64,000 nucleotides of DNA from Actinocatenispora thailandica. Its GTDB lineage: Bacteria > Actinomycetota > Actinomycetes > Mycobacteriales > Micromonosporaceae. The position numbers and the translations under genes were made by a program. The number at the start of each line of letters is the position of its first letter. Position 1 is the stretch's first letter. Below the pieces are notes generated by a model. It saw only the letters and a list, made by a program, of their open reading frames with translations, was not told where the DNA came from and ran no database searches. Below are positions 7,544 to 11,893 of the stretch, piece after piece. The stretch is from contig NZ_AP023355.1 in NCBI RefSeq assembly GCF_016865425.1, positions 1,982,198-2,046,197 on the forward strand, given 5' to 3'.

Positions 7544-8320
7544 TCAGCCGGCGAGCCACTCGCCGCTCGCGGCGTCGACCAGGCCACACCGTACGGCGGC
7601 GGTGACCGCCTCCAGGCGGGTGTGCGCGCCGAGCTTGGTCAGCACGTTCTGGACGTGGCAGCGGGCGGTCGCCGGGGTGACGCCCATCGACCGGGCCAGC
7701 GCCGCGGTGTGCTCCCCGCGGACCAGCCGGCACAGCACCTCGCGTTCGCGCGGGGTCAGGAACGCGGCCAGCCGGAACAGCTCCGGCACCGAACCGCGGC
7801 GGGGCAACTGCTGGTACGGCGGGCCGACGACGGTGTCGCCGGCGCACACCCGCGCCACCGTGTCCAGGATCGCCGCGACGTGCTGGCCCTTGTCGACGAG
7901 CCCCGACACCCCGGCGGCGAGCGCCGCCGGTGCCACCTGCCGTTGCCGGCGGCCGGCCAGCAGGACCAGGCGCGTCGCCGGCGCGGCCGCACGAATCTCG
8001 GCGAGCCGCTCGAACCGGTCGCCGAGATCCAGTCCCACATCGAGCACGCACACGTCCACCGGAAAGGCGTGCAGCACCCCGAGCACCTCGTCGAGGCTGC
8101 GGGTCACCGCGGTGACCTGGTACCCGGCGTCCACGAACACCATGGCCAGCGACTCGGCGAACACCAGGTGGTCGTCGCACACGAGCACCCGGGCGCCGGC
8201 CGATCCGGTACCGGCGCGGCCCGGTACCGCCGCCGGCCCGGTCGCTGTCACCGCCGCGGTGCGCGGGGCGGAACGCAGCGCCGCGCCGGCCGGGGCGGTG
8301 ATCGTTCCGGTGGCGGTCAT
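7544..8320 (-). CDS. LuxR-type response regulator with altered receiver
   Basis: A 258-residue protein with a receiver-like domain (VLVCDDHLVFAESL onward) and a C-terminal LuxR/NarL helix-turn-helix (LTPREREVLCRLVRGEHTAALA). The acidic pair, a candidate phospho-Asp (CVLDVGL) and the conserved Lys (GLVDKG) are present. The switch Ser/Thr position reads Ala (VLLAGR), so classical phosphorylation switching may be weakened. ATG 8320 overlaps the stop of the small upstream gene (ATGA). About 35 extra residues, rich in Ala/Thr, precede the receiver. The stop lies 6 bp from the convergent end of the exopolysaccharide operon, which it may control. It is paralogous to the regulator at 11063-11734. Confidence 0.85.
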   Translation of the reverse strand: MTATGTITAPAGAALRSAPRTAAVTATGPAAVPGRAGTGSAGARVLVCDDHLVFAESLAMVFVDAGYQVTAVTRSLDEVLGVLHAFPVDVCVLDVGLDLGDRFERLAEIRAAAPATRLVLLAGRRQRQVAPAALAAGVSGLVDKGQHVAAILDTVARVCAGDTVVGPPYQQLPRRGSVPELFRLAAFLTPREREVLCRLVRGEHTAALARSMGVTPATARCHVQNVLTKLGAHTRLEAVTAAVRCGLVDAASGEWLAG

Positions 8321-8514
8321 GGTCGGGCACCACCCGGTGACAGCAGCTGGTCGAGCCGGGCCCGGCTGTCCGGGCCGACGTCGACGGCGTCGGTGACCGC
8401 CCGGGTCAGCAGCATGATCGTGACGATCTCGTGCCGGACGTCGGGTCCGAGCCGCCGGTGCGGGCCGGCCGAGTCGCCGGGTTGGCGCCCCATGGGCTGG
8501 TGGTGGCCAGGCAT
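8317..8514 (-). CDS. 65-residue protein resembling an isolated histidine-kinase phosphoacceptor (DHp-like) helix
   Basis: A short gene with a strong GGGGGGAA ribosome binding site before ATG 8514 and a stop overlapping the next regulator's start by four bases, a layout typical of genuine coupled genes. The segment LGPDVRHEIVTIMLLTRAV followed by an amphipathic helix (SRARLDQLL) looks like the H-box helix of a histidine kinase, with His-Glu as the candidate phosphoacceptor pair. No ATP-binding domain exists on either side. It could be a minimal phosphotransfer or dimerisation partner of the downstream response regulator, or a decayed kinase remnant. The likeness rests on one helix, so function is uncertain. 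Confidence 0.55.
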   Translation of the reverse strand: MPGHHQPMGRQPGDSAGPHRRLGPDVRHEIVTIMLLTRAVTDAVDVGPDSRARLDQLLSPGGARP

Positions 8515-8539
8515 GATGTTCCCCCCGTCGGGTCGGTGA

Positions 8540-8558
8540 CCGCACCTGGCTGGTGCGG
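8540..8558. promoter_or_regulatory. 7-bp inverted repeat in the leader of the LuxR operon
   Basis: CCGCACC-TGGCT-GGTGCGG forms a perfect stem of seven pairs with a five-base loop, 26 bp upstream of the small DHp-like gene. It lies in the 235-bp spacer between that gene and the unknown gene ending at 8750. It could be an operator or a leader hairpin; it is not placed to terminate either neighbour clearly. Confidence 0.4.
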
Positions 8559-8749
8559 GTCGGCGGCCCGGAAGATCTCGTCCCACGACAGCACACAATC
8601 CGGGGCGGGGCCGAGGTGCCTGGCGAGTAATGGACGGCCGGACCGCGAACGAACCGTCAGTACCGCGCCCGGGTGTCCGTTCGTCGGATCGGCACCGTCC
8701 GGCGGGTGGCCGGACCGGCCGAACGGACCGGCCACCCCGGTCCGGCGGC

Positions 8750-11062: not shown

Positions 11063-11734
11063 TCATTCGGCGGATGCCCGACGCGGGCCGACGTCGTTGG
11101 GTCGCATCCCGCACCGCAACGCGACCGACACCGCCTCCAACGCCGAGTGCGCCGGCAGCTTGCCGAGCAGGTTCTGGGTGTGGGTACGCACCGTGTTCGG
11201 CGACATGAACAGCAACTCGGCGATCTGCGCCCGGGTCATGCCGTCCACCAGGCACTGCAACACCTGGCGTTCCCGTACGGTCAGCCGGTCCAGTACCGGG
11301 CTGCCGGCCGGTTCGGTGAGGGTGCGCAGCAGGCCGGCGAGCAGCTCCGGCGGGATCCAGGACTCGTCCCGCAGCACCCCGCGCAGCACCTGCAGCAGGG
11401 TGTCCCCGTCGGCGGTCTTGGACAGCCAGGACACCGCGCCGTGCCGTACCGCGGTGGCCACCGCCTCCGGGGACCGCGACGCGCTGAGGATCACCGAGCG
11501 CAGCAGCGGGTACCGGTCCCGGGCGTGATCGAGCAGCTCGACCCCCGAATCGGCGCCGAGATCCAGATCGACCAGTTGCACGTCGACGTGCGCGCCGGCC
11601 AGCAGTTCCCGGGCCGCGGCGACGGTCTGCACCGCGCCGACGACCTCGAACCCCGGCTGCCGTGCCAGCCACACCGCCAACGCCTCGGCGAACAGCGGCT
11701 GGTCGTCGACGACCAGTACCCGGATCGGGTCCAC
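11063..11734 (-). CDS. LuxR/NarL-family response regulator
   Basis: A 223-residue two-domain response regulator. The receiver (IRVLVVDDQPLFAEAL) keeps the acidic pair, phospho-Asp in LVDLDL, the switch Ser (VILSAS) and the Lys (SWLSK). The C-terminal helix-turn-helix is LTVRERQVLQCLVDGMTRAQ to NTVRTHTQNLLGKL. The GTG at 11734 was chosen because the receiver begins five residues later; further upstream in-frame GTGs exist, so the N-terminus is uncertain. No histidine kinase is adjacent. It resembles the regulator at 7544-8320 closely enough in the effector domain (ALEAVSVALRCG versus RLEAVTAAVRCG) to be a paralogue, and the pair bracket the glycosyltransferase genes. Confidence 0.85.
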   Translation of the reverse strand: MDPIRVLVVDDQPLFAEALAVWLARQPGFEVVGAVQTVAAARELLAGAHVDVQLVDLDLGADSGVELLDHARDRYPLLRSVILSASRSPEAVATAVRHGAVSWLSKTADGDTLLQVLRGVLRDESWIPPELLAGLLRTLTEPAGSPVLDRLTVRERQVLQCLVDGMTRAQIAELLFMSPNTVRTHTQNLLGKLPAHSALEAVSVALRCGMRPNDVGPRRASAE

Positions 11735-11893
11735 CCACCGATGCTGCGCCGGCACCGTCGTTCTGTCATCGTCCGAACGACGGAGCACCGGCCCCACCGT
11801 CGTGCCGCCCGGATCGTCGGCCGGTATCAGGCGCCGAACGGTCGTCGCGGGTGGCGGGGCGATCGGCCGGCGGGCGCGGCAGAATGGTTCGTC

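Follow-up and report, generated by a model that had tools for sequence, protein, structure and literature searches.

The short gene, its regulator and their surroundings

The window analysed here is a stretch of 64,000 nucleotides of the genome of Actinocatenispora thailandica, which is assembled as one contig of 7.43 Mb. It contains a 65-codon gene followed by the gene of a LuxR-family response regulator (Table 1). The ORF described by the initial annotation is present, together with its RHEIVTIMLL segment, and its TGA stop codon overlaps the ATG of the regulator gene, as had been noted, in the tetranucleotide ATGA. The absence of an ATPase domain also holds, since no Pfam or NCBIfam family, HPt included, matches the 65-residue protein at E ≤ 1. 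AlphaFold predicts a helical hairpin comprising residues 24-41 and 48-58, with a mean pLDDT of 77. The occurrence of orthologues within the genus and the homology to the DHp of full-length kinases, both detailed below, indicate that the gene is real and not a chance reading frame.

The regulator matches Response_reg and GerE. Its switch residue is indeed an Ala, as first reported, while Asp94 and Lys144 are intact. The term degenerate, which had been applied to this protein, suits the replacement of the Thr/Ser switch but not the remaining residues: the acidic residues, the phospho-Asp and the Lys are present in all three genomes that carry the short gene, and none of the three regulators is a pseudo-receiver in the sense of having lost the acidic pair, the phospho-Asp or the Lys. 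Upstream of the short gene, the intergenic leader harbors similar inverted repeats of the CGAACG/CGTTCG type in all three of these genomes, as well as a conserved block, ATTGTGTG(C/T)TGTCGTGGGACGAGATCTTCCGG; the leader is a candidate promoter or operator region.

The genes around the locus encode a polysaccharide deacetylase, a NAD-dependent epimerase, a GH18 protein, and GT2 and GT4 glycosyltransferases, which suggests surface polysaccharide genes of this lineage as possible targets of the regulator. This link is tentative, because in A. rupis a second regulator precedes the kinase gene with no glycosyltransferase in between. The counterpart of that second regulator in the window (73% identity) is separated from the short gene by the GT4 gene and a gene of no assigned function.

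Table 1. Features of the locus, in positions of the window
Feature	Positions	Strand	Remarks
LuxR-family response regulator gene	7544..8320	-	receiver and GerE HTH; Asp94, Ala122 (switch), Lys144; low-complexity N-terminal extension of ~42 residues
ATGA stop/start overlap of short ORF and regulator gene	8317..8320	-	the regulator's own Shine-Dalgarno site is weaker, -5.4 kcal/mol
Short ORF, 65 codons	8317..8514	-	kinase remnant with DHp helix 1, the hairpin and the initial ~11 residues of helix 2, then a short tail ending PGGARP*
His28 codon	8431..8433	-	His singled out initially; corresponds to H+4 in the kinase H-box and is not the phosphoacceptor
Pro24 codon	8443..8445	-	replaces the phosphoacceptor His of full-length kinases (His in 30/30 aligned kinases, Pro in 3/3 short forms)
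Shine-Dalgarno-like G-run of short ORF	8520..8526	-	-11.2 kcal/mol; same G-run in the three short-form genomes
Intergenic leader	8527..8680	-	strongly conserved in the three short-form genomes, long stretches nearly identical; possibly its own promoter/regulatory region
ORF of 297 residues	8753..9643	-	between the GT4 glycosyltransferase gene and the short gene; no Pfam family at E ≤ 0.001
Second LuxR-type regulator gene	11066..11770	-	

Orthologous loci and the full-length kinase

The short form occurs in three of the four Actinocatenispora genomes examined, with lengths of 65 residues in the window, 67 in A. comari and 95 in a third genome (G003). The two orthologues are 83% and 76% identical to the protein of the window (E 3.3e-29 and 7.9e-23), and the accompanying regulators are 90% and 89% identical to that of the window. 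The fourth genome, A. rupis, encodes at the same place, directly before an orthologous regulator (72% identity), a 223-residue protein with a HATPase_c domain; this domain is missing from all three short proteins (no Pfam match at E ≤ 1). That the second regulator is also shared with A. rupis identifies the two as the same locus. In the AlphaFold model of the A. rupis kinase, the DHp helices span residues 27-54 and 60-85 (mean pLDDT 86). The small protein is 55% identical to the full-kinase DHp over 40 residues, with an E-value of 6e-12 for this single comparison, and its DHp part is thus homologous to a HisKA-type kinase located at the same place beside the same regulator. The short proteins align with the kinase as far as the DQLL sequence at the start of DHp helix 2, then end, leaving ~11 of the 26 residues of this helix. 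The DNA alignment between A. comari and A. rupis breaks off at the same DQLL point. To note, the G003 gene contains, just past the shared core, an in-frame insertion of 84 nt (1675-1779 of locus L009) that resembles, as a partial repeat, the DHp stretch before it. The short form ending in PGGARP and the ATGA overlap is found in three separate assemblies, which makes a sequencing or assembly artefact, a reading for which no supporting point was found, exceedingly improbable.

Among 354 genomes of the family, the A. rupis kinase has matches at E ≤ 1e-23 in 11, which count A. rupis itself and G004, where the kinase is split over two frames, while a regulator profile retrieved 17 of the same genomes at E ≤ 1e-40. 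Named genomes were also scanned with the regulator, and the best 80 of 305 loci, which were used, add Actinomadura, Actinoallomurus, Dactylosporangium, Rugosimonospora, Longispora, Nonomuraea and others. After removal of nine repeat loci recognized by equal kinase scores (L042, L043, L084, L094, L096-L099 and L134), 91 non-duplicate loci with a related regulator were compared. A long histidine kinase match covering DHp and ATPase domains is found at 67 of them, the kinase being counted when it scores above 60 bits on the regulator's strand anywhere in the locus, and adjacency being taken from the coordinates. This match is full-length at 62 loci, including L117, from a draft genome, where a frameshift interrupts the kinase. 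At the five others, most of the profile is matched in one piece: the best match spans only profile positions 2 to 153-162, with a second piece reaching position 194 in four of the five and none among the matches listed for L081. The remaining 24 loci comprise the three short forms, one interrupted kinase (L022) and 20 without a match above 60 bits, of which three (L045, L088, L100) are truncated by the end of the contig directly upstream and 17 belong to distant regulator homologues scoring at most 178 bits against the profile.

Among the 91 loci, the short form is therefore restricted to the three Actinocatenispora genomes and, judged from these locus counts, is the derived state. The small gene is best described, from the full kinase at 67 loci and in A. 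rupis and the short form at three, as a lineage-specific in-frame truncation of an ordinary bacterial sensor histidine kinase. The initial annotation had tied its proposal of a stand-alone phosphoacceptor protein to the lack of a full histidine kinase at orthologous loci; such a kinase is what A. rupis and most of the related loci encode. A separate case is locus L022 (genome G004, completeness 77), which was left out of the short-form count: a kinase of the same family lies there in two overlapping frames (1172-1905 in reverse-complement coordinates) beside a regulator with Gly as switch residue, and candidate readings are an assembly error or a second, independent decay.

The regulators of the short-form genomes have Ala (window), Gly (A. 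comari) and Ala (G003) at the switch position. At the 62 full-kinase loci, taking the best-scoring regulator ORF of each locus, which in a few cases (e.g. L017, L110, L115) may align poorly or be a neighbouring regulator instead, this residue is Thr in 44, Ser in 13, Cys in L014, Gly in L015, Ala in the distant L110 and L115, and a gap in L116; the L110 regulator even has Ala at the phospho-Asp column. All five one-piece loci have Thr. The initial annotation's link between the degenerate switch and the reduction of the kinase is accordingly weak, as full-kinase relatives (L015, L014) and two distant loci also lack Thr/Ser, and a strict coupling of the two losses is not supported. A lost switch residue may promote loss of the kinase or come after it, yet is not specific to it. 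A relaxation of the receiver after kinase loss was also discarded: its divergence within the short-form clade (0.09-0.13) does not exceed that of other pairs among 35 regulators caught by motif, nor does the receiver evolve faster relative to the HTH than in those pairs. The N-terminal extension of the regulator, rich in Ala, Thr, Pro and Gly, is common to the three short-form genomes and absent from A. rupis, and hence co-occurs with the kinase truncation. An origin as leftover kinase DNA is not supported, with local alignment scores of 29, 26 and 28 that fall below the 95th percentile of 500 shuffles in all three cases.

The phosphoacceptor column

Thirty full-length kinases, selected by us from the loci with kinase matches, were aligned. 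All have HATPase_c, whereas Pfam HisKA is detected in only 13 at E ≤ 1. Their H-box motif reads HDIRHELGTI, and motifs that we take to be the N box and G1/G2-like boxes are also present. The first His of HDIRHE is invariant (30/30), while the second is nearly so, being replaced by Gln in two distant kinases (L110 and L115). The profile of the full-length kinases sets the first His on the H-box His of EnvZ (SHDLRTPL) and ZraS (VAHEIR), the residue that carries the phosphate in these proteins. A profile restricted to the DHp, short forms included, finds no kinase of the PDB at E ≤ 1; the register of the H-box consequently rests on the full-length profile. This result and the low count of HisKA matches characterize the DHp of these kinases, at the level of profile comparison, as divergent.

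The short forms read GPDVRHE or GPEVRHE: the phosphoacceptor column is occupied by Pro in all three. His28 and Glu29 are kept in the three proteins, so the conservation expected of the originally noted His is observed, but this His aligns with H+4 and not with the phosphoacceptor. By the numbering of HK853, for which H260 and T264 are named in PDB titles, His28 of the window protein stands at the T264 place. The proposal that the His of RHEIVTIMLL is an H-box phosphoacceptor, the true position being Pro24, was hence dropped, on the column analysis of the 30 kinases and the profile alignment to solved kinases. As far as can be predicted from these alignments, the kinase relic is unable to autophosphorylate or to hold a phosphate on an H-box His. 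The wider idea that the product is a minimal phosphoacceptor or phosphotransfer protein retains in its favour the constant His-Glu pair, and is confronted with the displaced His, its replacement by Gln in the two distant kinases, the lack of an HPt family match and a bundle that AlphaFold depicts as truncated; it is considered very improbable. The reduced signalling pair initially proposed is right as a reduced two-component system in origin, because the two genes derive from a kinase-regulator operon, while its phosphotransfer part fails on the full kinase found elsewhere and the lost His.

The H+4 position is relevant to another activity of histidine kinases. The phosphatase activity of CrdS depends on its H+4 residue, N375, which matters little for kinase activity, and is only modestly reduced in the H371A mutant; conversely, mutation of the H-box His of PleC abolished phosphatase activity as well (PMC3510030). 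The small protein might then be a docking remnant, a mini-DHp that still binds the receiver of its former partner and keeps it sequestered, shields it from other kinases or assists in its dephosphorylation. The retained part (helix 1, the hairpin and the start of helix 2) corresponds approximately to the regulator-contacting half of the DHp, the predicted hairpin is compatible with such a role, and His28 occupies the phosphatase position. Besides, A268, A271, T275, V294 and D297 of HK853, belonging to a rewired interface according to a PDB title, are inferred to lie in or near the kept part, the register of helix 2 not being aligned. The PleC result speaks against this reading, as does the shortness of helix 2, with which a normal dimeric four-helix bundle is unlikely for the small protein on model grounds.

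Translation signals, selection and the role of the short gene

The Shine-Dalgarno-like site of the short ORF, whose pairing energy was calculated with what we take to be the anti-Shine-Dalgarno tail, reaches the value given in Table 1 in all three short-form genomes, beyond the 1% tail (-9.8 kcal/mol) of random 17-mers of the window and near that of the full kinase of A. rupis (-11.1). The regulator's own site, identical in energy in the three genomes, is stronger than the median random site (-2.4) but falls short of the best 5% (-6.7); for the A. rupis regulator, the value (-6.8) was read one base away from the GTG start. All three short forms thus present the sequence features of a leader ORF: a strong first site, a weaker second one and the ATGA overlap. 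Since the strong site and the stop/start overlap have been kept, a translated leader is the best-supported role of the small ORF.

Evidence for selection on the small ORF itself appears weak from the substitution patterns. Its dN/dS amounts to 0.52, 0.44 and 0.59 in the three pairs, which share branches and are not independent, as compared to 0.31, 0.39 and 0.45 for the regulator. Within the 37-codon DHp core, the window and A. comari differ at 8 of 111 nt with two amino acid changes (P 0.001-0.013), while 16 of 66 nt differ in the N-terminal part. A second pair is borderline, with five amino acid changes in 11 nt changes (P 0.016-0.12), and the A. comari/G003 pair is neutral, with five in eight (P 0.27-0.53). 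No constraint is detected in the N-terminal part (P 0.10-0.63). The lengths of the short ORFs differ by 6 and 84 nt, both multiples of three, while gaps of other lengths, for example 1 nt, occur in the alignment of the leader. High-GC DNA, however, keeps frames open: with 24-45 changes, only 25-53% of simulated neutral copies acquired a stop, and frame retention is therefore weak evidence. The last 21 nt of the small ORF, ATGA included, are identical in the three genomes.

These data bear on three readings. In the first, the small gene is a relic of the regulator's cognate histidine kinase: most simply, the ancestor of the three Actinocatenispora species would have lost the ATPase domain entirely, along with most of DHp helix 2, through an in-frame deletion, and Pro would have replaced the phosphoacceptor His. 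The strong ribosome-binding site has been kept, and translation of the leader, terminating over the regulator start, would deliver ribosomes to the regulator gene by translational coupling. The regulator would work without this kinase, unphosphorylated or phosphorylated by another donor. Of this account, the descent from the kinase, the truncation, the missing His and the conserved Shine-Dalgarno-like site and overlap are demonstrated, while translation of the peptide, its coupling to the regulator and the present mode of regulator activation are proposed. This account, of a kinase relic that is now mainly a translated leader for regulator synthesis, is modestly probable as a whole. It is consistent with the full kinase at the orthologous place, the match of the short forms to it up to DQLL in protein and DNA, the Pro in the phosphoacceptor column, the contrast between the two ribosome-binding sites, the length changes by multiples of three and the unaccelerated receiver. 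It is weakened by the regulator's own site, which exceeds the random median and might suffice although it is outside the best 5%, by the low power of frame retention, and by the core having fewer amino acid changes than neutral in one of the three pairs, which would fit a retained protein function.

The latter point, the two changes in a core that differs far less than the N-terminal part between the window and A. comari, also counts in favour of the docking remnant. The neutral A. comari/G003 pair and the G003 insertion just after the core speak against a docking role, and this reading is rather unlikely. Its more elaborate version, in which a ~40-residue DHp fragment without phosphoacceptor was selected as a binding partner of the regulator (antagonist or phosphatase helper) while the regulator drifted to a switch-less receiver, is judged improbable. 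Alternatively, the gene is a functionless leftover of the truncated kinase, not yet gone, with neither peptide nor coupling of any importance. The dN/dS over the ORF, the unconstrained N-terminal part, the G003 insertion and the ease with which frames persist all agree with this possibility; the open frame, the same G-run and the identical last nucleotides, in genomes whose regulators are 90% and 89% identical to that of the window, do not, and it is regarded as doubtful.

With the leader account preferred, the small gene is probably to be regarded as a curiosity produced by gene decay, and not as a signalling protein of a new kind. A single genus displays both states of a two-component system, with the kinase and after its loss, the regulator and the kinase translation start being kept. 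If the coupling is true, it would explain why kinase relics persist in frame before regulators. The locus also carries a warning: a single HE in a small helix should not be read as an H-box.

No title on two-component systems of Actinocatenispora is among the matches listed in the literature search. The nearest known systems include the HisKA-type kinases such as EnvZ, HK853, ZraS and KdpD; the small protein retains the DHp helix 1 of its full-length relatives of this type, but lacks the ATPase domain, the phosphoacceptor His and more than half of helix 2. HPt and other minimal phosphotransfer proteins resemble it as small helical proteins adjoining a regulator, but it has no HPt match and no His at the H-box phosphoacceptor place. 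DivL shares with it the nature of a kinase-derived protein in which the phosphoacceptor His is replaced. The solved C-terminal part of DivL aligns with the full-kinase model over 221 columns and hence keeps DHp and ATPase-like parts, whereas the small protein is a ~40-residue DHp piece only. DivL belongs to the degenerate (pseudo) histidine kinases (PMC9430884). The closest precedent for the leader account is cbrX of the Pseudomonas putida CbrAB system, as presented in PMC6591292: a short ORF preceded by a recognisable ribosome-binding site overlaps a two-component gene, and CbrA synthesis requires that this ORF be translated but does not require its product. The cbrX ORF and the kinase gene share 17 nt, and the product of cbrX is a putative membrane peptide, while the small ORF is a kinase remnant before a regulator; coupling has been shown for cbrX (PMC6591292) and is inferred here.
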